Source: Pirellulaceae bacterium (GTDB lineage: Bacteria > Planctomycetota > Planctomycetia > Pirellulales > Pirellulaceae). From it: 64,000 nucleotides of DNA. Below are positions 3,001 to 16,050 of this stretch, piece after piece. Where the stretch lies: the NCBI GenBank assembly GCA_022448315.1, contig JAKVCA010000019.1, positions 62,001-126,000 on the forward strand, in the 5' to 3' direction. The notes beneath the pieces are model-generated. The model saw only the letters and a program-made list of their open reading frames with translations. It ran no database searches and was not told the origin of the DNA. Both the position numbers and the translations under genes were made by a program. How positions within the stretch are numbered: the stretch's first letter is position 1; every line of letters begins with the position of its first letter.

Positions 3001-4125
3001 CTACCCCGCCTTGCGAGCCTGAGCCACCCATGGCATCTGTGCCTCTTCGGGATGGAACTCACCTGACTTCAAAAGACGTGGGAAAGGCATGGCCAATGGA
3101 CCGGAAACAGGGAGCGACTCCCCATACCAATGATGACCTTGTATCTCGTCCATCACGGCATGAGCGACTTCAAGGGCGCGACTTCCCTGCCGGCCGCAGA
3201 CTCTAGGAACCCGGTTTGCGACAATGGATTCTGCGAAGTCCTTGTGCTCTTCCAGAATTGCATTTTGCTCTGGGGCCGTTTGCTCATACTTGGGCAGCCA
3301 CTCTGTAAACAGCGTCTCGCGAACCTGTTGCTGACTTTCGGCAGGCATGGACAGGAAATCGACCGCGCGGCTCAACATCGCATCTCCCGGAGCAATGCTT
3401 TGAACCTGACGAGTCGTGAGATCAGCTTGGGCGAATGATCGGTCGGAGAATACCTGAATCGTTCTTTGCCTAGAAAAGCTGCATCGTGATGCAACCAATT
3501 GGGCAACCGCCCCATCTTCGAATTCGAGGCGAGCTTGGGCAATATCTTCATGCTCTCCCATGATTGAAATCCCAACCGCGTCGACCTGTTTGACGTCCGA
3601 TTCCACCAGACTCAGGATCAGATCAAGGTCATGGATCATCAAGTCCAGAACGACACCAACATCGGTGGAGCGGAATGTATATTCACTCATGCGGCGAGTT
3701 TCGATGAACTTGGCGTGACTGACCTTCTCTTTCAGCTTCTCAAATGCCGGGTTGAACCTTTCCACATGTCCAACCTGCAAAACAGCTCCGGAACGATCGG
3801 CCAACTCGACCAGTTCTTTTGCCTCATCTGTGGTGACCGTGATCGGCTTCTCAACAAGGACGTGCGTTCCCTGCTCCAGCAAAGATTGACAAATCGGGTA
3901 ATGAAGCCCGGTCGGGGCAGCGACGATCGCCGCCTCAAAAGTTTCGGGAACCTGGTCGATCGATTCAAAGCCCTGAATTCCCAGCTCCGCTTGAAATTGA
4001 TTTCGCGCTTCACTGGAGGGATCAACCACTCCAACAACATCGAAGATATCCAAGCTGTTTGCCAGTCGGGTATGGATTCGTCCCAAATGCCCGGCACCCA
4101 CAACAATCGTTTTGATACGGCTCAC
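3001..4125 (-). CDS. Gfo/Idh/MocA-family NAD(P)-dependent oxidoreductase
   Basis: 374 residues, the usual length for the family. The N-terminus has a Rossmann fingerprint (VVGAGHLGRIH, residues 8-18), followed by the conserved EKP motif at residues 92-94, whose lysine is the usual catalytic residue, and a C-terminal alpha/beta sheet domain. Its start overlaps the lpxA stop by four bases, so the two are probably translationally coupled. That context suggests a role in nucleotide-sugar modification for lipid A. GnnA, which oxidises UDP-GlcNAc at C3 in Acidithiobacillus, belongs to this family and is also encoded beside lpxA, but the partner aminotransferase GnnB is not nearby. Family assignment is firm; the substrate is inference. 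Confidence 0.88.
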   Translation of the reverse strand: MSRIKTIVVGAGHLGRIHTRLANSLDIFDVVGVVDPSSEARNQFQAELGIQGFESIDQVPETFEAAIVAAPTGLHYPICQSLLEQGTHVLVEKPITVTTDEAKELVELADRSGAVLQVGHVERFNPAFEKLKEKVSHAKFIETRRMSEYTFRSTDVGVVLDLMIHDLDLILSLVESDVKQVDAVGISIMGEHEDIAQARLEFEDGAVAQLVASRCSFSRQRTIQVFSDRSFAQADLTTRQVQSIAPGDAMLSRAVDFLSMPAESQQQVRETLFTEWLPKYEQTAPEQNAILEEHKDFAESIVANRVPRVCGRQGSRALEVAHAVMDEIQGHHWYGESLPVSGPLAMPFPRLLKSGEFHPEEAQMPWVAQARKAG

Positions 4126-4928
4126 GCTGCCTTCCTCCGATCCCGACCTCGACCGTGACGTCCTTCAGTCTGATTTGAGATGAACGTCATCAGATGTTGC
4201 ACCTCAGGGAGCAACTTGCCGTTGCTTTTCATGATTTCCATCGCATTCTCCACCCCAACTCTTGACCGGTAAAGCAGGCGATGGGCTTCAGACAAAGCCC
4301 GGATTGCCTCAGCTGGAAACTTGTTTCGTTTCAGGGCCACGACATTCACACAGCGAGGGCGAGTTGGGCTACCCTCGACCAACATGTAGGGTGGAACGTC
4401 ATGGAGAACCCGGCTCAGACCACCCACGAAGCTGTAACTGCCAAGCGAAGTGTAATGATGCACTCCCACTCCGCCGCTGATGGTCACGGAGTCCGCAACG
4501 TGGACGTGACCTCCAAGCATGGATCCATTGGCCATGACCAATTGGTCACCGATCTTGCAATCATGGGCAATATGAACGCAAGCCATCAGAAAACACCGAT
4601 CACCCAGCTTGGTGATCCCATCTTCTTTTTCGCTCGCCCGGTTGATCGTGACGCACTCGCGGATCGTATTGTGATTGCCGATCAAGACACACGTTCGACT
4701 GCCGCCATAACTGATGTCCTGAGGTTCACCGCCGATCACAGACCCCGGATGAACATGGTTGTCGTGCCCCATAATGACACGACCTTTGATCACCACGTTG
4801 CTCTCGAGTTTTGTATCATCGCCAATCTTTACGTCCGGCCCGATGTGACAGAACGGACCGATCTCGACATTGTTCCCGAGTTCCGCTCGAGGGTCGACGC
4901 AAGCGAGGTTTGATATTCTTGTAGCCAT
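4122..4928 (-). CDS. lpxA: Acyl-ACP--UDP-N-acetylglucosamine O-acyltransferase
   Basis: First enzyme of lipid A synthesis, which transfers an acyl chain from ACP to the 3-position of UDP-GlcNAc in the cytoplasm. The 268-residue frame from the ATG at 4928 is the normal length. Left-handed beta-helix hexapeptide repeats run through the first two thirds (NVEIGPFCHIGPDVKIG and similar). The invariant catalytic histidine lies in the VHIAHDCKIG segment. The C-terminal part is the helical acyl-ACP-binding domain, ending in a basic tail. The frame extends 17 codons further upstream, but the repeats begin right after the chosen start. It is preceded by lpxC and overlaps the downstream oxidoreductase by four bases. 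Confidence 0.95.
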   Translation of the reverse strand: MATRISNLACVDPRAELGNNVEIGPFCHIGPDVKIGDDTKLESNVVIKGRVIMGHDNHVHPGSVIGGEPQDISYGGSRTCVLIGNHNTIRECVTINRASEKEDGITKLGDRCFLMACVHIAHDCKIGDQLVMANGSMLGGHVHVADSVTISGGVGVHHYTSLGSYSFVGGLSRVLHDVPPYMLVEGSPTRPRCVNVVALKRNKFPAEAIRALSEAHRLLYRSRVGVENAMEIMKSNGKLLPEVQHLMTFISNQTEGRHGRGRDRRKAA

Positions 4929-5122
4929 AAGGGTTGGTACCGGTTGCATCCTTGACCGGGGTGACCTGTGGTTAACCACAAGATCCCAACGGGTAAAAAA
5001 TTTAAATGAGCGGTGTGCCAGTTCGATCCTTCGACTGAGTCACCGCATTTCACCGACAATGCAAAAAAAAGTCCATAGCAATTCTTGCCAGATCGCATCG
5101 CCGCCATGATTCCTTGACCGGA

Positions 5123-6007
5123 TCAAGCGGACTTCCTCAAGTCATCCTCCAGTTTTGCTTGATGCAGTAGGCAACGCACCATCTCCGCATTCAGGCGGTG
5201 TCCGCTGCGACAAGCCACGATTCTCGCGTCCAAATCGTACCCTGCGAGTGCAAGATCCCCGATCACGTCGAGAGTTTTGTGACGCACACACTCGTCTTCG
5301 TAGCGGAGTGTATTGTTGATCGGACCTTCAGCCCCAAAGACCAGTAAATCCTGGTAAGTCACTTTCTGACCAAGGCCCTGATCTCGTAACCACTGAGCCT
5401 CCTGTTCCAGCAAAAACGTCCGGGCATTCGCCAATTGGTTCGCGAACGTATCCCTTCCCGTTTCAATCCCGAAACACTGACGCCCGATGGCCGGACAATT
5501 GGTGTAGTCAAGTTGATATTCGACGTAGTATTCACCGTGGTGGGAGGGCGTGGCTTCAATCCAGCTGGTCTCGTCACCCACACGAATGGGCTCGGTCACA
5601 ACAAGTCGGGCCCGAGATCGAGCTTGATTGACCCTTGAAACGCTTCGCAACGCATCGACAAATGCCTGGCTGGACCCATCCATCCCCGGCATTTCTGCAC
5701 GGTCGACCCAAACCTCACAGTTGTCGACCTCCTCGCTCGCCAACGCCGCCATGATGTGCTCCACCATTTCGACAGAAGCCGTCCCTGAAGCCAGAGCGGT
5801 TCTGAGGGGCAGATCGATTCGATTGCCGACGCAGGCGGGTATCCGAGGCTGATCCGGAAGGTCGGCTCGAACAAATGTGATGCCAGCATCGATTGCTGCC
5901 GGTCGAAACTCGATGCGGACATCCAATCCGCTCCAGTAACCAAAACCGGAAACAGAAACAGGATTGGACAGCGTGTGCTGTATTCGAAGAGGTCTGATCA
6001 AGGTCAT
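5123..6007 (-). CDS. lpxC: UDP-3-O-acyl-N-acetylglucosamine deacetylase
   Basis: Zinc-dependent committed step of lipid A synthesis, 294 residues. Catalytic residues align with the E. coli enzyme: Glu83-His84 (E78, H79), His243 and Asp247 in RHKTLDVIGD (H238, D242), and His270 in SGHRLN (H265). The substrate-binding region ARTFLLEQEA is present. The N-terminal motif that reads GxGLHSG in proteobacteria here reads SGFGYWSGLD, with Trp in place of His. The protein is the single-domain form and is not fused to FabZ. It sits between ompH and lpxA on the same strand, with about 60 bases on the ompH side and about 190 on the lpxA side. Confidence 0.94.
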   Translation of the reverse strand: MTLIRPLRIQHTLSNPVSVSGFGYWSGLDVRIEFRPAAIDAGITFVRADLPDQPRIPACVGNRIDLPLRTALASGTASVEMVEHIMAALASEEVDNCEVWVDRAEMPGMDGSSQAFVDALRSVSRVNQARSRARLVVTEPIRVGDETSWIEATPSHHGEYYVEYQLDYTNCPAIGRQCFGIETGRDTFANQLANARTFLLEQEAQWLRDQGLGQKVTYQDLLVFGAEGPINNTLRYEDECVRHKTLDVIGDLALAGYDLDARIVACRSGHRLNAEMVRCLLHQAKLEDDLRKSA

Positions 6008-6066
6008 TTGCTTTCAATTCGGTGACACAACAGGATCCACGAGAGCGGAGATTTCAAAGAGCAGCC

Positions 6067-6672
6067 CTAGCGATTGATCCGCGGAGCGGAGCCAATCTGG
6101 GTCCCATTGATCGTTGCGATAACCTGATCCGTAATGTCCCGACCTACCTGAAAGACAATTTCCCGGTTGACTCCCTCTATGACCGATTTTCTATCGGCGG
6201 CATCGATCGGTGCGCTATTGAACCGAAGAACCAGTCCAATTCCATTCCGATCCGCATAGTTGGCAATTTGTTGAGTCACTTCAACGTAGGTGTCGAAGTA
6301 AAGCCGTGCCTCTTTTTCCGAAATATCTCGCCCCTTCTGACTCTGCGTCACCTGCAACTCAGCAAGCTTCTTGCTGATCTCAGTCTCTTTCGCCTTGAAG
6401 TCGGGGTCGTTGGGATTGGCCTGCTTGAGCAATTCTGCTTCGGCCGCAAGCTTGTTCTGTTCCGTTCGCATCATCGTCTGGAACATCTCGGCGTCTTTTT
6501 TCATCTGCTCAAGACTGGCATTGAATCGCGTATGAGCTTTGAAGACTTTTGCGACATCGACCAGGGCGATGCGTTGCCCCGCCTCAACTGGACCGTTATT
6601 GGCAGCGATTGCGGTCGACGAGGACGATGAAACAAGAATGATTGAGCAGATGACAGCTCGAAGGGACTTCAT
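6067..6672 (-). CDS. OmpH/Skp-family periplasmic chaperone
   Basis: About 201 residues from the ATG at 6672, which opens a classical signal peptide (MKSLRAVICSIILVSSSSSTAIA). The mature protein starts with the family's beta-strand IALVDVAKVF. A long charged coiled coil follows (residues about 60-140, rich in Lys, Glu and Gln), then a C-terminal strand region. This is the layout of Skp/OmpH, which holds unfolded outer-membrane proteins in the periplasm. It leads the leftward lipid A gene set and is divergent from the BamA-like pair, the machine it would be expected to feed. The longer upstream frame (to 6732) lacks a better start. Confidence 0.88.
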   Translation of the reverse strand: MKSLRAVICSIILVSSSSSTAIAANNGPVEAGQRIALVDVAKVFKAHTRFNASLEQMKKDAEMFQTMMRTEQNKLAAEAELLKQANPNDPDFKAKETEISKKLAELQVTQSQKGRDISEKEARLYFDTYVEVTQQIANYADRNGIGLVLRFNSAPIDAADRKSVIEGVNREIVFQVGRDITDQVIATINGTQIGSAPRINR

Positions 6673-7394
6673 CACAATATGCACTCCTTGCAGGTATTTC
6701 CCATTTCGACATGGGCCCCCTGAAGTCAACAAGCAGGGGTTATCAGGACGTTCATTCCGTCGAACGTCGGGTGATCACGATCGGCGAATCCGGACCGGAT
6801 CGAGTGGCCACATTGTGTCGGGATCTTGCCATCACGTAAAGGTCATTCTGGCCACAGGGAAAGCAGAAACGCTAGCAGTCTCGCCAAGGATTCCGAAGCC
6901 GCTGTCTCCATAGAGAGCCGTTCCAAACTTTGCAAATCCCAAAACCACTTCAGCCATACTTCGGCAAACGACCGCCCCACTCATCACTCGACGGAACGCT
7001 CGATGGAAATGTACAGCCTTGTCTCTGTCGGCGACTGCCGAAACAGTCTCCGAGCAGCACCCGCAGAGGTGAAATCTCAACACACGGACTCACTCCGCTG
7101 AGACGCCTTATCGTCTGCAATCCGGACAATCTTTTAAAAGAACCTATCCGGGAATCAAATTCGCCTTGTTTTGATATCGCTCTTCAGGTAATTACCTCTC
7201 TCCGAGAAGTACCCACACCAATTTTTGGCGTGGGCCTCTTCGGCATGCTGAATCGTCGTTGTTTTTAATCGCGTCTCAATACCGGGTCGTTGCAGCAACG
7301 ACCTTGCAAGCAAGACCAATACTGGCCACATACGGCGGGGCGATCCAATCCCATGCCGAACTCAATTCTATCAAAACCTCACTGGCGAGAATTT
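6673..7394. other. Divergent intergenic region between ompH and bamA-like gene
   Basis: About 720 bases without a convincing gene, which must hold the promoters of the two divergent envelope transcripts. The only clear structure is a hairpin at 7212-7234: arms CCCACACCA and TGGCGTGGG, one mismatch, five-base loop. It has no T-run and lies in the likely leader of the bamA-like gene. I found no promoter pair good enough to annotate. Confidence 0.4.
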
Positions 7395-8912
7395 ATGTCA
7401 GGAACAGCCGCAGTCACGAAGGCAGGCTCGACCAAGGCGATGCGAGGTCGTTTTTTCTACATCAGCCGACGGCGCATTCTTTTCACGGTCTTGCTCCTGG
7501 GTTCGGCTTATGGAAGTGCAGAGGCACAACCGCCGGTGTCACCTCCGCCGGCTCCCGCGTTCCCCGCAATAAATCCGCCAGAGGAAATTGGTTCGTCTCA
7601 AAAAGTGATCCTTGACGTCATCATCACCGGAAACCAACGTGTCACGAAAAACACGATCTTGGCGAAACTGCAGACACGTCCTGACCGAAACTTCTCCCCG
7701 GATCAGCTGCAGGCGGATGTCCAGGCACTGATGCTGATGAAAGAGTTCCGCAATGTCCGGCCTCTTGTGGCCGAACAGGGTGAGGGCGTCATTGTCACGT
7801 TCGAGGTGATGGAGAAGGCGAGAATCACGGCAGTCAACTTCATTGGCAATCGAGCCATTACCAATCGGGCGTTAACCAAGGAAGCCGAAATCAAAGAGGG
7901 CGATCCACTGGATCTTTACGCTGTCCGTCTCGCTGAGAGAAGAATCGAGAGCCTATACAAACGTAAAGGTTTTCCACGAACCGAAGTGACGATCGTGGAA
8001 GGCGACGACACCGCCGATGGCGAGATCACGTTTCTGATCAACGAAGATCAAGTACGAGAGATCTACAACGTCAAGTTCATTGGAAACAAATTTGTTTCTG
8101 GAGCCCGACTCGCTTCCTTTATCAAAAGCAAGCCCGGGCTTTTCGCTCCTTTTTACCGCACACGTTACGCAAGTGACAAATTGGCCAGCGATCGCGACCG
8201 ACTCACGGCTTACTACCGAAACTTTGGATTTTTCAATGCCGTCGTCGATGTAGAGACACGCTACAGTGGCGACCATTCTCAGGTCTATATCACCTTCATC
8301 ATCAACGAAGGTCCGAGATATAAAATTCGAGATGTCGCTGTCGCAGGAAATGAAAAGTACAGTTCGGAAGAACTTTTTTCACTCCTAAAGTTGCAGACCA
8401 ATCAGGATTTCAATGCTTCGGAAATGACTCGCGATGTCAACGCATTGAAAGATCTCTATGGCAGCCAAGGCTACATCAATGCCCAAGTGCAAGCGGATCC
8501 ACTGTTCCTCGATGAGCCAGGAATGATTGATCTTGTCTACAAGATCACTGAGGGGAAACAATATCGGGTTGGAAGAATCAATGTACGGATCGATGGAGAT
8601 TACGGCGTTACGAAACAAAGCGTCGTTCTTTCTCGATTGGACCTTCGGCCAGGAGATATCATCGACGTTCGCAAAATCCGTGACAGTGAACGACGTCTGG
8701 CCGCCTCTGGTTTATTCATGGCGGAACCCGCCATGGGACAGATGCCTCGCATTGAAATCAAACCGCGAGAAAATTCATTTGAAGGTAGCGTCCAATCGGC
8801 CGGTCTCGACTTTCGTGGCCAAAGCCCCGACAACGATGCCCGCAATACAGCGGTCGGTGATCTGTACATTCCCAAGTTATATTCCTCGAAATCCAACTTC
8901 TGGTTTCGGTAG
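7395..8912 (+). CDS. bamA: BamA-like protein, POTRA-domain half only
   Basis: About 505 residues. The start could be the ATG at 7395 or at 7440; the second gives a tighter signal peptide (Arg-rich, then ILFTVLLLGSAYGSAEA). A Pro-rich stretch follows, then five POTRA modules recognisable by their 'V-x-GN' turns (IITGNQRV, NFIGNRAI, KFIGNKFV, AVAGNEKY, NVRIDGDY). After the fifth POTRA the protein ends at 8912, with no beta-barrel. A barrel-only gene follows 144 bases later in the same frame, but two in-frame stops (TAG 8910, TGA 8919) and a separate start lie between them. In the standard BAM complex POTRA and barrel are one polypeptide, so this is a split or recently broken bamA. Confidence 0.85.
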   Translation: MSGTAAVTKAGSTKAMRGRFFYISRRRILFTVLLLGSAYGSAEAQPPVSPPPAPAFPAINPPEEIGSSQKVILDVIITGNQRVTKNTILAKLQTRPDRNFSPDQLQADVQALMLMKEFRNVRPLVAEQGEGVIVTFEVMEKARITAVNFIGNRAITNRALTKEAEIKEGDPLDLYAVRLAERRIESLYKRKGFPRTEVTIVEGDDTADGEITFLINEDQVREIYNVKFIGNKFVSGARLASFIKSKPGLFAPFYRTRYASDKLASDRDRLTAYYRNFGFFNAVVDVETRYSGDHSQVYITFIINEGPRYKIRDVAVAGNEKYSSEELFSLLKLQTNQDFNASEMTRDVNALKDLYGSQGYINAQVQADPLFLDEPGMIDLVYKITEGKQYRVGRINVRIDGDYGVTKQSVVLSRLDLRPGDIIDVRKIRDSERRLAASGLFMAEPAMGQMPRIEIKPRENSFEGSVQSAGLDFRGQSPDNDARNTAVGDLYIPKLYSSKSNFWFR

Positions 8913-9056
8913 TCTCCTTGATCGTTGCTCGTTTTTGCCGCCAAGCCAGAAGATGGATTCATGTGTTTTACATTTCGCCTTCCCACTGACCATTCACGGA
9001 TGAATTTAACGAGTTTCTTCATGAGGAAGATTCGTTGCATAGAAGGATTAAACGAC

Positions 9057-10655
9057 GTGGGTAAAGACTCTTCGTCATCTCGCATCATCGGCAGCTTCAT
9101 CATGGCGAGCCTCCTGTCGCTTCAATGGGGCTGTCAGACCATGACACAGATTCCCGATGCGAGCTATCAGTCAAATCGCTATCTCGAGAAGGGCGACCAA
9201 GCGATCAAAGCCGCGATGCTTCCGAAAAATACGAAAGAAGACGCGGGGCGGGACCACTCCCAATCCATTGCACTTGCATCCGCTGAAGAACCCGTCATCC
9301 GAGCACAAGATACGCCGACCAACGGCTGGAATGGAGGTACTTGGCCAACCAGTGCACCCCGCGCCCCCATGCAAGCGGGTGGAGCTCTGGCCGATGGCTC
9401 TCAACCGAATCCTGGCAATGGTGGAACACGCGTCGCGCAAGCCCCCGTTGAGCCCGGCTACCCGGCATTGCAGCCACCAGGAGAGTGGACTGGCGCTCCC
9501 CAAGACATCAACCCGATCAGCCCGTTCTACGGGCCGCCCCAAATTGGCAATCAAAATAACCCACTCAACCTTCCCCCCAACTTTGCCGACATTGACGCAA
9601 TTGTTCAGGAAGGGCAGACGGGCCGGTTCATGATTGGTGCGGGCATCAACTCGGATGCCGGACTGACAGGCCAGCTCATCTTCGACGAAAAGAACTTTGA
9701 CATTACGGCCTTACCACGTAGTTGGCGTGACGTCTCGGAAGGATACGCGTTCCGAGGGGGAGCCCAAACGTTACGGATCGAGGCCTACCCGGGCAACGTG
9801 TTACAGCGATACATGGTCAGCTTCAGTGATCCCTACTTTCGTGGAACGCCCGTCAGCTTTGGTTTGAGTGGTTATTACTTCGATCGAAACTATTTCGACT
9901 GGGACGAACAACGACTGGGCGGCCGACTGTCATTGGGCTATCGGCTCACTCCTGACATTGCCCTCACGGGATCAACGAGGATGGAAAATGTCAAAATCAC
10001 GGATCCGCGACTCGACTCCTCTCCAGAACTCAACGCAGCTCTGGGCAGCAGTGAGCTCTACATCGGACAAGTCTCATTGTCTAACGACACCCGAGACAAT
10101 CCGTTCGCAGCCACGGAGGGTTACTTGCTGGAACTTTCGTATCAGCAGGCGTTTGGAACCTACGACTATCCTCGTGCCGATGTGAAGTACAACCGCTATT
10201 TCCTGCTTCGCGAACGCCCCGATGGCTCAGGACGTCACACGTTGATGTACAGCACTCAGTTTGGCGTGACTGGAGCACAGACGCCCATTTTCGAGAACTA
10301 TTTTGCTGGCGGCTTTTCCACGCTTCGAGGATTTGACTTCCGAGGAGCCTCCCCTGTCCAAGGTGGAGTTCGAGTTGGCGGAGAGTTCATGTGGATTAAT
10401 ACGGTCGAATACCTGTTTCCGTTGACGGCAGATGACATGCTCAAAGGCGTCGTATTTTGCGACTTTGGAACCGTCGAAGAACAAGTGGAAATCAATCGAG
10501 AAGCTTTCCGGGTGGCTCCCGGCTTCGGATTCCGTGTTCAGATTCCCAGAATGGGAAATGGAGCGCCTCTTGCATTCGACTTTGCATTCCCGGTACTCAC
10601 CGAGGATACCGACGACGAACGAATTTTCAGCTTCTTTATGGGATTCCTGCGGTAG
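9057..10655 (+). CDS. BamA/TamA-like outer-membrane beta-barrel, lipoprotein-like N-terminus
   Basis: Beta-barrel half of a BamA-like protein. I chose the GTG at 9057 because AAGGA at 9043-9047 is nine bases upstream and because it opens an export signal (IIGSFIMASLLSLQWGC) with Cys26 as a possible lipidation site, though Gln and Trp before it make an imperfect lipobox. A longer frame begins at 8925. Residues about 50-150 are a Pro/Gly/Asn-rich linker. From about residue 165 amphipathic beta-strands run to the C-terminus, with the Omp85 signature RGFDFRG in the loop-6 position and a final strand ending FFMGFLR. No POTRA domain is present. Product of about 532 residues, probably working with the upstream POTRA protein. 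Confidence 0.85.
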   Translation: MGKDSSSSRIIGSFIMASLLSLQWGCQTMTQIPDASYQSNRYLEKGDQAIKAAMLPKNTKEDAGRDHSQSIALASAEEPVIRAQDTPTNGWNGGTWPTSAPRAPMQAGGALADGSQPNPGNGGTRVAQAPVEPGYPALQPPGEWTGAPQDINPISPFYGPPQIGNQNNPLNLPPNFADIDAIVQEGQTGRFMIGAGINSDAGLTGQLIFDEKNFDITALPRSWRDVSEGYAFRGGAQTLRIEAYPGNVLQRYMVSFSDPYFRGTPVSFGLSGYYFDRNYFDWDEQRLGGRLSLGYRLTPDIALTGSTRMENVKITDPRLDSSPELNAALGSSELYIGQVSLSNDTRDNPFAATEGYLLELSYQQAFGTYDYPRADVKYNRYFLLRERPDGSGRHTLMYSTQFGVTGAQTPIFENYFAGGFSTLRGFDFRGASPVQGGVRVGGEFMWINTVEYLFPLTADDMLKGVVFCDFGTVEEQVEINREAFRVAPGFGFRVQIPRMGNGAPLAFDFAFPVLTEDTDDERIFSFFMGFLR

Positions 10656-10831
10656 CCGGAACACGCCCACCGATCACGGGCTCAAACGTAGGGCGGCAGC
10701 AGAGGAATACGGGGCAGCAGGGGCCCTCTGTGCGTCAGCAGGCCAATGCCGCGTTTGAGGACCGCACAATTCCCAGCCCGCGGATTCATTTATGCCGAGT
10801 TTTCTTTGACCCACCCTTGATCCGGGTATGT

Positions 10832-10944: not shown

Positions 10945-12258
10945 TTAGCCCAGAAGTTGCCTGATGACGGACCCATCTCTCACGATCGTGATGGGACGGC
11001 CTGTATCGGTGTCGTATTCCTTAGTGAAGTCGATCCCAATATTGCGATAGAACGTGGCCGCGACGTCATCCGGGGCAAACCCATCACCTTTCGGCCCTGC
11101 TGCAGTTTCATCACTCTCACCCACGACCTGACCGCCTTGGACATCGCCGCCCGCCATGAGCATGAACATGCAGCGTGGATAATGGTCTCTTCCCGGTTGC
11201 GTTCCCCGCTGATTGATTTTCGGAGTCCGCCCAAACTCTCCCGATACGAATACGGCTGTCGAATCCAGAAGTCCTTTTTGCTCCAACCCGTTGAAAAGAG
11301 CCGAAAGTCCTGTGTCGAGATTAGGAAGCAGATTCTCCGCCAGACGTTCGAAATTACTCTGGTGGGTGTCCCAGCCTCCGAGTCGCAAGGTGACAAAACG
11401 GACTCCAGATTCAATCAGACGCGTCGCTAGAAGGCAACTATTCCCAAAGGCCTGATCACCAAAGGGTTTAGCAAAACTCGGCGTTTCCTTACTGATATCA
11501 AATGCCTCTCGCGCCTTTGCGGAGGTGATCATATTGAAGGCCTTCCGATTGAAGTCATCCAAGCCTTCAACCAGTTGAGACTCTTGTTCCAAAGACGCGA
11601 ACGTCGAATCCAGATCCTTGAGAAGCTTGTGCCGATTTTCGAACTCTCGCAGCGTCATTCCGCCCTGCATGCTGATGCCACGAACCGAGAACGGGCTACC
11701 AGCCTGAGGAACGCGATTGGTGTTCAATGGCCCATATTTGACGCCCAGGAAGCCCGGGCGTTGTCCTCCAGACGGGATCGAGACGAAAGGCGGCAGCGTA
11801 GGCGGATTCCTTCCTTCAGATTCCTTGGTGACAACGGCCCCGTAGCCGGGGTACTCAAGCGAAGCGAGGGGGCGATTGCCCGTGTTGATGTACTCGCTGC
11901 CTAGGCGATGCGCTGCCAAGGTGTGGGAAACTCCGCGAACGATCGCAAACTTATCCGCACACTTGGCCAGTTTTGGAAGATGCTCCGAGATTTCCACTCC
12001 AGCGACCTTCGTTTTCACGGACGCGAACTTCCCACGGATTTCTCTCGGCGCGTTGGGTTTGGGATCGAAGGTATCGAGATGCGAAGGGCCACCCGCCAGA
12101 TCCACAAAGATGGCCGACCGAATGGGTTGACCGTTATCTTCGTTTGCCTCTGTCGCTTTGAGGAATTGGCCGAGCGACAGACCTCCCGTTCCAAGAACAC
12201 CAACCTTCAACGCATCACGTCTGAGCATACCATCGCAATTTCGATTGAATCTTGGCAT
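10945..12258 (-). CDS. DUF1501 protein with Tat-type signal
   Basis: 437 residues. The N-terminus MLRRDALKVGVLGTGGLSLG is a twin-arginine export signal. The body matches the DUF1501 family, whose fold is related to sulfatases and alkaline phosphatases: IFVDLAGGPSHLDTFDPKP near residue 50, LRLGGWDTHQ, SGEFGRTPKIN and GRDHYP in the C-terminal half. These are typical metal-binding segments of the superfamily, but the biochemical function is not established. It lies 186 bases downstream of the DUF1549/DUF1553 gene on the same strand. This pairing is very common in planctomycetes and suggests that the two act together in the periplasm. Confidence 0.93.
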   Translation of the reverse strand: MPRFNRNCDGMLRRDALKVGVLGTGGLSLGQFLKATEANEDNGQPIRSAIFVDLAGGPSHLDTFDPKPNAPREIRGKFASVKTKVAGVEISEHLPKLAKCADKFAIVRGVSHTLAAHRLGSEYINTGNRPLASLEYPGYGAVVTKESEGRNPPTLPPFVSIPSGGQRPGFLGVKYGPLNTNRVPQAGSPFSVRGISMQGGMTLREFENRHKLLKDLDSTFASLEQESQLVEGLDDFNRKAFNMITSAKAREAFDISKETPSFAKPFGDQAFGNSCLLATRLIESGVRFVTLRLGGWDTHQSNFERLAENLLPNLDTGLSALFNGLEQKGLLDSTAVFVSGEFGRTPKINQRGTQPGRDHYPRCMFMLMAGGDVQGGQVVGESDETAAGPKGDGFAPDDVAATFYRNIGIDFTKEYDTDTGRPITIVRDGSVIRQLLG

Positions 12259-12444: not shown

Positions 12445-15186
12445 TCAATGGATCAGGCGAAATTCCTTCGTGTTGATCAGTGCCCAAACCAAACCCTCCA
12501 GTCCTTCCGCCACCGTTTCCGATTCGTCAAAGAAGGCTTGGCATCGTGTCCGCTCATCCACTTCAGGGAAACGACTCAACGTTCGCAAGTAAGCTTCACT
12601 GATCAACTGATTGATATCGAGTTCGCCGGAAGACTTCTCCGGCCCCATATTCCGATTTCGCCGATCTTGATTCGCAACACGCTCCTCGTCCATTCGAACC
12701 TGTTTCAAACGAGATTTCAGCATGCTTTGCTGGCGGCGAAGTTGCTTGACCTGCGTTTCACTTCCCTTCTCTGAAGCACGTCTGAGTGTTTTGGAAATCT
12801 GCTCTAAACGATTTTGCAAAAGCGCTATCTTCTTCTCTTTGGGTAGCTGATTGAACTGCCGTTCTCGCTCGGTCGTCTTCGACGCAGTGGACTGTCGAGC
12901 GATCTCGAAAATCCATCCGGACGGTCGTTTCAACAGGGCATGAACATCCTGATCGTTTTGCAAATAGACGGTTTGCAAAAGGGTCGCTTCATCCGACCGA
13001 TCGCAATCGCAATTGCTTTCTCGTGTGGAACGTCCGAAAACTTCGAGCGAAAATTGACGATTCCGCAGTGGCCCTTGAAGTTGAGTTCCGGCCGCGGCAA
13101 TCGTTCTCTCTTGCCAGTTGTCGGCCAAGCTTTCGAGCCCCTTTGAATTGGTCGTGGCAGTTGCCACGGCATCCACCATCACTTCAGCAGGCATTCGTTT
13201 CAGGTAGGCATGGGAAAAGTGGCGTTTGTCGAGCGCATTGGTTTCGTTCGTTCGCCAATCCAGTTGGTAAGTGCGGCTGTTTGCAATTTCCCGATGCAAC
13301 CACTTCATATCGAAACCGCTTTTCACAAAGCCTTTTTCCAAGTGGTCAAGAAGCCGGGCATTACTCGGAGGATTTGCAAGGTTGAGGTCGTCCGCCGGTT
13401 CCACGATCCCTACACCGAAATACGAGGCCCAAACTCGATTGACGAATGCTTTGGCAAAATACGGGTTATCCTCCCTCTTGAGCCAGTTCATCAACGGTTC
13501 TCGAACGTCACGAACTCCTTGTATTGCCACCTCCTCTTGTCCCAATATGCCAATCGACTTGGGCTGCGGAGGCCGATTACGGTTACGGTTGCGACCCTGC
13601 GGTCGCGGGGTGGTGACCCCAGGTCTTACGGCCACTACCGGCATCGGTACTGTTTCACCCTTCTTCATCAGCTCGCCAAACTGGCGTCTGAGCTGATTGC
13701 CACGGGCTTCTCCATCCAAATCGAGTTCCCCAAGAAGGACGGCGAATTCTTTCGCGTGAGTCTGGCGGCCGGTCTGATCAAAAACGACACTACCAAAGAA
13801 CTTGGTGAACTCATCAAAGTCCTGCTTCGACCATTGGTCGAATGGATGCTTATGACATTGGGCACATTGGATGCGAACCCCCATAAACGCATAGGCAAAG
13901 TTGATCGCTCGACTCTCCGCATCACGGAAATCTCGCCGTGTCCAGTAATGCGTCAGGCCGGGTAGATCCGAATAGTTTTTGTCGGATTCTCCGCGGTAGA
14001 TGGAACACATTTCGTCCGAGAAATCCTCGTAGGATTGGCTCGGCGAGAGACTTTTCGCCGTCACGATTCCTGACACGAGTTCATCGTAGGGCGTGTTATC
14101 GTCAACTCGCTTGTAGATCCAGTTGTACCAGTCCTTTTCTGCCTGACCACGAACAGGGAGTGTGTTTGTGAGCTGTTGCGAGTTGTTCCCCGTGTAATCA
14201 CAAAGTTTGGTTGTCCACCACGCCGCGTAAGCGGGGGATTCTAGCAACTCTTCAACTTTGCGAGATCTCTTGTCCTCGAGATCGCTGGCAAGGAATTGCT
14301 CCACTTCCTGAGGCGTCGGCAGGGTGCCAGTCAAATCGAGACTGACCCGGCGAAGAAACGTGGCGTCATCTGCAAGTTCACTCGGTACGATCCCCATTTG
14401 ACTCAACTGCTCAACAACCAACTCATCGACACGCGTTGGTGTGGGGACCGCAGGATATTGCTTCCCCACTTTTTCTGACACCGGCCGAAGGACAGAAATC
14501 GGCTGAACTTCCTTGTCGTAAAAAACCACCACATGCGTTGCCCCCGGTTCACCGGCGGTCACGCGTCCGTTTTCGTCAATTGCCGCGAGTTGATCATCAT
14601 TGGATCGAAATCGGCACAGCGGCGTAACATCCTCACGGGTACCATCTTCCCAAACGGCAACAACGCTAAGCTGAACCTCGTCACCTGCTTGGGCAAAGGT
14701 GATCTGCTGGGGTTCAACACGAAGATGCTCCAATCGGTGGAGCGGTTCCGCTTTTGGGGCACCCGCTGCAATCCACTGCGACAACAGCCGATACTCCCAA
14801 CCTTCCTTGGAAAACCGCTCGCCGCCTTCGTGCTCGTCTTCGTCCGTGGGCTTGAACAGGATCAAGCTCTCGTCGACCACATCGAGATCGACCCGAGGGC
14901 TCTCCTCTGAGAACAGAGCTTGATGGTCCGCATCGAAATCATATCCAAAAAGGGAAAGCTGAAAGCCTCCTTGCCCTTGGAAAGAGCCATGGCATGCGCG
15001 GCCGTTGCATCCCAGTCGACCAAACAAAGGGACCACGTGTTTTTGAAAGTCGGGTATTTCATCGGTTTCGACAGCGAAACGGTTGGTCACGTCGAGTTGA
15101 GTTTCTTGCGCCGGCAGTTGGGTAAACCACCCCAAGGCCAAGCTCAGCAACAAACCGGAAACCATCGAGGTCGTATTCGAATTCAT
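12445..15186 (-). CDS. DUF1549/DUF1553 protein with haem-like motifs and Ig-like domain
   Basis: About 913 residues from the ATG at 15186; an in-frame ATG at 15195 is possible, but AGG about ten bases upstream favours 15186. A signal peptide is followed by the CNGRACHG segment (Cys60, Cys65, His66), then a BIG2-like Ig domain. The DUF1549 domain (VDELVVEQLSQ, SLDLTGTLPTP) carries a CAQCHKHPFDQW cytochrome c-type CxxCH motif. The C-terminal DUF1553 domain includes NPYFAKAFVNRVWASYFG. These planctomycete proteins are presumed periplasmic haem proteins, possibly linked to polysaccharide or C1 metabolism; the function is not proven. A Lys/Arg/Gln-rich helical insert lies near the C-terminus. The DUF1501 partner follows. 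Confidence 0.92.
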   Translation of the reverse strand: MNSNTTSMVSGLLLSLALGWFTQLPAQETQLDVTNRFAVETDEIPDFQKHVVPLFGRLGCNGRACHGSFQGQGGFQLSLFGYDFDADHQALFSEESPRVDLDVVDESLILFKPTDEDEHEGGERFSKEGWEYRLLSQWIAAGAPKAEPLHRLEHLRVEPQQITFAQAGDEVQLSVVAVWEDGTREDVTPLCRFRSNDDQLAAIDENGRVTAGEPGATHVVVFYDKEVQPISVLRPVSEKVGKQYPAVPTPTRVDELVVEQLSQMGIVPSELADDATFLRRVSLDLTGTLPTPQEVEQFLASDLEDKRSRKVEELLESPAYAAWWTTKLCDYTGNNSQQLTNTLPVRGQAEKDWYNWIYKRVDDNTPYDELVSGIVTAKSLSPSQSYEDFSDEMCSIYRGESDKNYSDLPGLTHYWTRRDFRDAESRAINFAYAFMGVRIQCAQCHKHPFDQWSKQDFDEFTKFFGSVVFDQTGRQTHAKEFAVLLGELDLDGEARGNQLRRQFGELMKKGETVPMPVVAVRPGVTTPRPQGRNRNRNRPPQPKSIGILGQEEVAIQGVRDVREPLMNWLKREDNPYFAKAFVNRVWASYFGVGIVEPADDLNLANPPSNARLLDHLEKGFVKSGFDMKWLHREIANSRTYQLDWRTNETNALDKRHFSHAYLKRMPAEVMVDAVATATTNSKGLESLADNWQERTIAAAGTQLQGPLRNRQFSLEVFGRSTRESNCDCDRSDEATLLQTVYLQNDQDVHALLKRPSGWIFEIARQSTASKTTERERQFNQLPKEKKIALLQNRLEQISKTLRRASEKGSETQVKQLRRQQSMLKSRLKQVRMDEERVANQDRRNRNMGPEKSSGELDINQLISEAYLRTLSRFPEVDERTRCQAFFDESETVAEGLEGLVWALINTKEFRLIH

Positions 15187-16050
15187 CGCCACCATCCTAT
15201 CTGTATCCAGGTCGCGATTTGAAACCGCTCGCCCAGTGTTCACTCTCTTCAAACTGACGCATTCGATGCGTACAAGAACAGGTACGAATTTGGGCGGAGT
15301 TCACTCACAACCGTTTCTGCTCATGTATTCCATGATAGACCGTTCCCCCCCCAGAAGTAAGGAGGTGAGTTCCGACCACTTTTTGCAAATTTTTACCCGG
15401 GCGGCCTCGTCGCCTGCCGGATTTATAAAACCGTCGGGTTTCTTTGAGGTATCGACAAAACGGCGGGGTAACGCCACCCTTCCCAAAAGGTCACCATGAC
15501 TCAAAAGCGGTCCGTTGCCACGCTGCTTTGACCGCGAAAGCGACCCGATGGGCGCGACTGACGCCAATTTTTCAACAAATGGGCGTTGGGATCGGCCCCT
15601 CGTTGACGAGAGCCCTGCCAGAGCACACCGCCGCCGCGGCCGAACGAATTCGATATCACAACGTTTTTTTCCCGAAAAAGCGGCTCTTTTTCCCGTTGAA
15701 GCCGATCTTCGTGACAGAAACGCCTGCGAGCCGCCCTCCTGCTCTCGTGAAATATTGTGTAAACGGAACCGATCGGGGACATTTTTTACGAGGCATTGGC
15801 TCTGCAAGCCCCGCCGTCTAGAGACCTAAGCTGTGGTTCAGTTAAACTGGAGCTTGGGACGGCATCCGGAGGGCGTTATGGAGGGGTTTGGTATTTCGGT
15901 GGATCGGATGGGTGCAGTGCTTAGGGAGCACGAATTCCTGGCCCAGGCAAACCCTCTTATCAGCCGGCCGTCACTTCATCACCCCCAGTACAGTTGCCGT
16001 CGACTCGCGGACTTTTGGCGTGCCCCCATCAAAGACGAAAGCTTAATCAC
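15187..16050. other. Long intergenic region, no gene recognised
   Basis: About 860 bases between the divergent DUF1549 gene and the ABC permease gene. Open frames are present on both strands, but their translations are Arg/Ser/Pro-rich and resemble no family. It contains an eight-C run (15345-15352) and a perfect Shine-Dalgarno-like string at 15358-15368 that is not followed by a credible gene. The promoters of both flanking genes must lie here. Confidence 0.4.

Follow-up and report, generated by a model that had tools for sequence, protein, structure and literature searches.

Diderm bacteria have BamA as their central outer-membrane insertase; the statements made here about published work refer to the accessible parts of each text. 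In planctomycetes, bamA is reported to be essential in Planctopirus limnophila (PMC10632474), and Speth et al. (2012) used BLAST to list accessions of BamA from Rhodopirellula and Pirellula, with no mention of two genes in the accessible text (PMC3422733). Heinz and Lithgow (2014) described Omp85 lipoproteins with three POTRAs, and also Omp85 proteins without the N-terminal part (PMC4104836). The POTRA-barrel junction of BamA moves with the lateral gate, according to a 2026 review of the BAM complex (PMC13067283); planctomycetes are absent from the accessible text of that review and of Heinz and Lithgow (2014). A literature search, with subscription papers and preprints outside its reach, found no description of a split BamA, and none is described in the accessible parts of PMC8871954, PMC6604945 and PMC8567305. 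Here we analyse a stretch of 64,000 nucleotides from a Pirellulaceae bacterium (assembly GCA_022448315.1, contig JAKVCA010000019.1, positions 62,001 to 126,000; hereafter the window, whose first letter is position 1). It contains two adjacent co-directional genes which, we hold with good confidence, supply the sole BamA of this genome as two proteins, the fifth POTRA domain (POTRA5) being shared between the chains.

The window sequence and its list of open reading frames (ORFs) contain the frames 7290..8912 (+) and 8925..10655 (+), which lie in a single shared reading frame (Table 1). Gene 1 was read from ATG 7440, and ATG 7395, the choice of the first-pass annotation that pointed to this locus, is an alternative start; judged by eye, its product has a signal peptide with cleavage near AEA-Q. 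Gene 2 was read from GTG 9057, preceded by AGAAGGA at a spacing of 9 bases, and ATG 9000 and ATG 9021 are other possible starts. The two ORFs, the TAG and TGA stops that separate them and the GTG with its Shine-Dalgarno sequence are all present as first annotated. A site scan found no terminator-like site between the two genes, and a promoter scan of 6700-10800 gave zero sites.

Regarding domain content, gene 1 has five POTRA stretches (PF07244, 1.4e-55) and gene 2 one Omp85 match (PF01103, 3.4e-45) that spans profile positions 2-322 of 325 and includes the RGF signature, which confirms the barrel of the first annotation. A chance match is excluded by these E-values together with the conservation among relatives. 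On the NCBI BamA equivalog TIGR03303 (741 positions), gene 1 covers 2-370 and gene 2 covers 384-738 with a gap at 371-383, and jointly the two genes encode a whole BamA. Since neither half reaches the TIGR03303 cut-off of 297.15 bits (240.8 for gene 1 and 147.5 for gene 2), automatic annotation may miss BamA here; fused relatives exceed it as single proteins, with 399.9 bits for L081 and 392.0 for L037 (our labels for loci, genomes, contigs and families begin with L, G, C and f). The position of the cut had been given as after five POTRA modules. Five PF07244 stretches are indeed there, but the fifth is incomplete (positions 5-55 of 79, at 8580-8723), and the cut lies inside POTRA5. Alignments and model place it between the second and third strands, the third strand being predicted to be encoded with the barrel: when aligned by profile with a solved BamA, the gene 2 segment immediately before the barrel matches the last POTRA5 strand.

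The shared frame, with only two stops between the ORFs, would fit a sequencing error or a pseudogene left by recent breakage of bamA, with a single chain as the real protein, and breakage had been raised when the locus was first annotated. The relatives argue strongly against it. A profile search gave a barrel match in 96 of the 100 genomes of the window's family, where the longest open frame has 707 amino acids (aa); the family barrel frames are therefore too short for five POTRAs plus a barrel. In 30 family loci the POTRA frame was found immediately upstream in 28, that is, in all 28 that could be assessed, since the remaining two run into contig ends, and eight more family loci are likewise split. 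From titled genome records we took the best 80 of 469 confirmed matches, a sample whose counts favour near relatives: 73 are split, 3 fused and 4 truncated by contig ends, with split loci in Blastopirellula marina DSM 3645, Rhodopirellula europaea 6C and Candidatus Laterigemmans baculatus and a fused one in Aeoliella straminimaris. Of the 73 split loci, 31 have the POTRA and barrel frames in one common phase, and the two remaining phase relations account for 22 and 20. Because phase is arbitrary among relatives, the one-frame arrangement in the window is a coincidence, and stop-codon read-through was rejected as a general mechanism for the same reason. Moreover, the barrel genes have signals of their own, and the whole-genome search returned zero PF01103 matches besides gene 2 and zero PF07244 matches outside gene 1 (assembly completeness 96.95). 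As POTRA and Omp85 matches occur nowhere else, the gene pair is the sole BamA candidate in the assembly, and a second BamA elsewhere in the genome was rejected on these searches. Breakage or sequencing error is, in our judgement, scarcely credible. As judged from the sequences, conservation of the two-gene layout extends through the family, and the proposal of this layout as a new arrangement was borne out: close relatives, where fused genes had been named as the finding to look for, carry the same two genes, and fused forms were found in other families of the order and class. With respect to the nearest relative, the ratio of non-synonymous to synonymous differences (pN/pS) is 0.39 in the POTRA gene and 0.21 in the barrel domain, with synonymous sites saturated. 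As a side observation, one genome of the same family (G099:C18) has adjacent barrel matches at 3697-4959 and 5210-6523 that look like a tandem duplication of the barrel half.

We modelled with AlphaFold an artificial read-through chain of 1071 aa (alignment of 121 rows); 49 of its codons (8910-9056), two of them stops and 47 not, lie outside both called proteins. The model has a mean predicted local distance difference test score (pLDDT) of 75.3 and a predicted template modelling score (pTM) of 0.65. In order, it contains POTRA1-4, POTRA5 strands at residues 375-385 and 437-442, a low-confidence region with pLDDT mostly <50 across residues 449-710, and a strand at 714-724 (NFADIDAIVQE) that is additional to the 16 barrel strands starting at residue 728. 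E. coli BamA is at the top of the Foldseek match list; 693-701 residues were aligned full-length to the E. coli structures 8pzu, 8pzv, 7nri, 5d0o and 5ayw (Z 28.1-29.9, root-mean-square deviation 7.4-9.6), and in the structure comparison model residue 718 superposes on E. coli BamA residue 412 (6fsu). The model of the naturally fused L081 has the same order of elements, with low confidence at 411-427 and 433-531, a strand at 545-554 and 16 strands from 558.

Several points weigh against a POTRA5 completed by the barrel chain. The model represents a single artificial chain whose alignment contained 34 rows of naturally fused proteins, and it cannot show separate chains meeting. For L157 and L132 (Blastopirellula marina) the TIGR03303 match to the barrel half begins only at 396 and 418, and the POTRA5 strand is thus unrecognised by the BamA model in these two. 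Some gene 1 tails have a strand-like segment after the RGQSPD motif (VLLDIEVFG in L098), which might close POTRA5 by itself, and the L081 model has a short strand at 429-431 in the region after RGQSPD. The halves could also work apart, the barrel as an autonomous insertase and the POTRA protein as a soluble chaperone without stable binding. All 16 strands are present in the barrel model, and Omp85 proteins without an N-terminal extension have been described (Heinz and Lithgow, PMC4104836), both of which favour such a division of labour; however, the barrel chain contains a segment aligning with a POTRA5 strand, and the POTRA frame lies on the same strand as, and upstream of, the barrel domain in 121/121 split loci (73 from titled records and 48 others, two sets that overlap in organisms). 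We consider separate working of the halves improbable. For the POTRA half, docking on the barrel chain is a likelier state than the free periplasmic protein proposed in the first-pass annotation. The shared POTRA5 domain rests on alignment and model; docking, lipidation and function are inferred.

As for export of the barrel, we defined a rule that combines a hydrophobic 10-mer, a lipobox and a start codon 12-50 residues upstream; barrel frames with identical last 150 residues entered as a single row, and 10 distinct loci lacking a POTRA match were set aside. Among 99 distinct split barrels, 66 have a strict lipobox, 19 a looser one (including QWG-C of the window) and 14 none, whereas by the same rule no fused linker has a lipobox-like signal (0/37). 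As a sequence pattern, then, a lipoprotein-type signal of their own is carried by most split barrels (85/99). The 14 failures count against a general lipid anchor. In six of them (L026, L091, L093, L123, L134 and L150) a Cys still ends the hydrophobic run, and in eight (L021, L022, L023, L034, L057, L088, L089 and L157), Rhodopirellula europaea among them, there is no Cys at the lipobox position, both judged by eye; because of these eight, lipidation is not needed everywhere. Also on the unfavourable side, the lipobox of the window is poor, with Gln at -3. The barrel protein of this species may escape lipidation, its signal being cut by signal peptidase I or elsewhere: the atypical QWG-C and the eight relatives without a lipobox Cys speak for this, while the Cys, like that of most relatives, ends the hydrophobic run, and two relatives also have Gln at -3 (QVGC in L085 and QTGC in L160). 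We lean towards lipidation, with little firmness, and absence of the lipid is a serious possibility. The earlier proposal of an N-terminal anchor on the barrel therefore stood in part: the export signal is there, with its Cys at residue 26 counted from the GTG, and such a signal is common, while lipidation in the window is less certain. A lipid anchor is a common but not universal prediction, and for the window an uncertain one. We also noted by eye that in most split loci of f79, f81, f85 and f2 the barrel start codon is at or next to the POTRA stop, as in translational coupling.

Outside the family, a profile search across the phylum gave an Omp85 match in 291/292 genomes. The fused loci examined amount to 37, three distant and 34 from the same class or order. 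The distant ones are single chains of 786-829 aa with 12-20 residues between the POTRA and barrel profiles; in the other 34 these profiles are 85-415 residues apart. In the linkers inspected by eye, the insert sits between the second and third POTRA5 strands, and among relatives outside the family most possess a single chain with a long insert where the cut falls. Within the order, the assessable loci of f3, f78, f82, f83, f84, f86, f87, f88, f89, f91, f92 and f93 are fused, and those of f79 (5), f80 (1), f81 (1) and f85 (2) are split. Family f2 contains both forms: 47/49 genomes have a match, with 41 open frames of at least 997 aa (not all individually read), three verified splits (L060, L092 and L093) and three loci truncated by contig ends, and a fused gene is present in L037, L038 and L075, which come from other f2 genomes. 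A candidate split in the distant genome G154 (566-aa frame) was rejected by eye, the POTRA-like sequence and the barrel sharing one frame near the contig start.

To follow the history of the split we used a quick 45-row tree, whose deep branches are weak and whose test groups were named after a tree was seen. The 12 family rows form a split clade with a Shimodaira-Hasegawa-like approximate likelihood ratio test (SH-aLRT) value of 100, the four f79 rows do likewise, and the three split f2 rows form a clade (100) nested in an f2 clade (99) that contains fused rows. Six changes of state are required, both in this tree and in one of 85 rows. By the approximately unbiased (AU) test all split rows as a single clade were rejected (p-AU 0.0006); a single split clade without f2 gave p 0.041 and, in a larger set, without L060, p 0.037, and a clade of the window's family (f1) with f79 was not rejected (p 0.49). 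More than one change of state is likely from these sequences, with no exact count, and re-fusion or gene transfer is possible; the clade test alone cannot separate splits from either. A history with a single ancient split, placed at the base of the order, and several later re-fusions or gene transfer would account for a cut at the same place everywhere examined and for the kind of signal shared by most split groups, and the poorly resolved deep branches and the unrejected clade of f1 and f79 leave room for it. Against such a history stand the rejected single clade, the supported f2 clade in which the three split genomes lie among fused rows, and the lipobox kept in none of the 37 fused linkers. 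We regard it as unlikely, though a real contender. That BamA was instead cut several times independently at one spot in POTRA5, each time with a new and usually lipoprotein-type signal, strand complementation between the halves and delivery of the barrel as a lipoprotein, is a combined account whose chance we put slightly short of even.

The most likely mechanism can be drawn from the above. The gene 1 protein would be exported and cut by signal peptidase I to give a periplasmic POTRA arm. The barrel protein would depend on its own signal for export. In most species it would probably receive a lipid on the Cys and be sorted to the outer membrane, with the disordered linker as a possible tether of the lipidated protein to the inner leaflet. 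NFADIDAIVQE, the first ordered strand in the barrel chain, would then complete the POTRA5 sheet and hold the arm at the barrel mouth, which may restore the usual BamA geometry without a covalent link. As to its origin, the insert may have arisen first in the class, making the chain tolerant of cutting, and the cut would then have been fixed, probably more than once, along with a new export signal on the barrel, gained because the barrel half must be exported alone.

The linker itself has short motifs. R[GAS]Q is found in 87/99 split barrel linkers (shuffled mean 16.3) and 34/37 fused linkers (shuffled mean 7.3), RGQ[SG]P in 43/99 split POTRA tails (shuffled mean 0.05) and RGQSP in 24/37 fused linkers (shuffled mean 0.03), with shuffles done per linker and kinship among rows uncorrected. 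R[GAS]Q and RGQSPD are thus retained in disordered linkers that otherwise change fast, and our guess is that R[GAS]Q is a binding site for a shared partner. In addition, the segment after RGQSPD in the fused L072, L080 and L081 (e.g. VIDVALAG) resembles the last POTRA5 strand, as does the one in L098, and might be a further candidate for closing that domain.

The genes next to the pair (Table 1), Skp/OmpH-like, lpxC and lpxA-like, are the usual company of bamA. In a BLAST comparison of the relatives' short flanks, L098 alone showed the Skp-like gene next to the barrel, and matches to LpxC or LpxA were absent. The LptD model PF04453 had no match in the genome at E 0.01; given the lpxC and lpxA-like genes beside bamA, LptD may be too divergent for this model. 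A BamD-like partner is possible from sequence: the best single match to TIGR03302 (BamD) is a 462-aa protein (L178 1402-2790 (-), G000:C41) that begins like a lipoprotein (LMGC) and scores below the cut-off; on C1, two long frames exceed the cut-off only with stretches summed. Elsewhere in the window, a DUF1501 gene (10945-12258) stands beside a 935-aa ORF (12445-15252 (-)); pairs of DUF1501 with a large ORF are common in planctomycetes. A tRNA scan of the window found none.

Table 1. Features of the two-gene bamA locus and its neighbours (window positions).
Feature	Position	Strand	Basis
lpxA-like neighbour	4122..4979	-	PF00132, PF13720
lpxC neighbour	5123..6007	-	PF03331 3.3e-82; TIGR00325 above cut-off
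Skp/OmpH-like gene, divergent neighbour	6067..6732	-	PF03938 7.3e-14
Gene 1, proposed BamA POTRA half	7440..8912	+	490 aa from ATG 7440; PF07244 x5, TIGR03303 2-370
POTRA1	7608..7817	+	PF07244 6.9e-7
POTRA2	7821..8045	+	PF07244 2.3e-11
POTRA3	8061..8312	+	PF07244 2.4e-12
POTRA4	8319..8555	+	PF07244 5.0e-16
POTRA5 minus last strand (strand 1, two helices, strand 2)	8562..8765	+	Model residues 375-442
RGQSPD motif, gene 1 tail	8814..8831	+	Sequence
TAG stop of gene 1 (8910-8912) and second in-frame stop TGA (8919-8921)	8910..8921	+	Sequence
Gene 2, proposed BamA barrel half	9057..10655	+	532 aa from GTG 9057; PF01103, TIGR03303 384-738
Export signal ending QWG-Cys26, putative atypical lipobox	9057..9134	+	Cys codon 9132-9134
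Disordered linker, gene 2	9135..9578	+	pLDDT mostly <50, model residues 449-710
RAQ motif, gene 2 linker	9300..9308	+	Sequence
Segment aligned with last POTRA5 strand, NFADIDAIVQE, in gene 2	9579..9611	+	Model, profile and structure alignments
16-stranded Omp85 barrel	9621..10652	+	PF01103, model, structure comparison; RGF 10326-10334

A natural BamA whose junction is cut across a whole family offers a direct test of the need for a covalent link between POTRAs and barrel, as the machine has apparently been cut by nature where one chain was thought to be needed. The signals on the barrels also suggest that lipoprotein sorting might be a second route for a barrel insertase to the outer membrane.

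Compared with known systems, the locus resembles BamA in its five POTRAs, the 16-stranded barrel with RGF, the Skp-like, lpxC and lpxA-like neighbours and the full-length fold match to E. coli BamA, and differs from it in being two proteins cut between POTRA5 strands 2 and 3, with a long disordered linker and a separate export signal on the barrel. With the long-insert fused BamA of L037, L072 and L081 it shares the position of the insert in POTRA5, the RGQ motifs and the barrel start, whereas those have one open frame (at least 916 aa among the frames listed and read) and no lipobox in the linker (0/37). TamL or 'Lipo' Omp85 proteins of Bacteroidetes and Chlorobi are Omp85 with an N-terminal lipid anchor (PMC4104836, PMC12045153), an anchor that is putative here. 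However, in TamL the lipid is followed by three POTRAs within a single chain, and here the lipid-type signal is on a POTRA-less chain that is BamA by model score; on the TamL model NF052279 the POTRA half scores 44.7 bits against a cut-off of 400, and the barrel half has no match at 0.001. Mitochondrial Sam50 has a single POTRA. Sam50 and the Omp85 'noNterm' proteins (PMC4104836) are similar to gene 2 in that at most a small POTRA part belongs to the barrel chain. Unlike in the noNterm proteins, here a linker of ~150 residues and a POTRA5-like strand precede the barrel, a POTRA gene adjoins it, and POTRA5 seems to be shared between the two chains.

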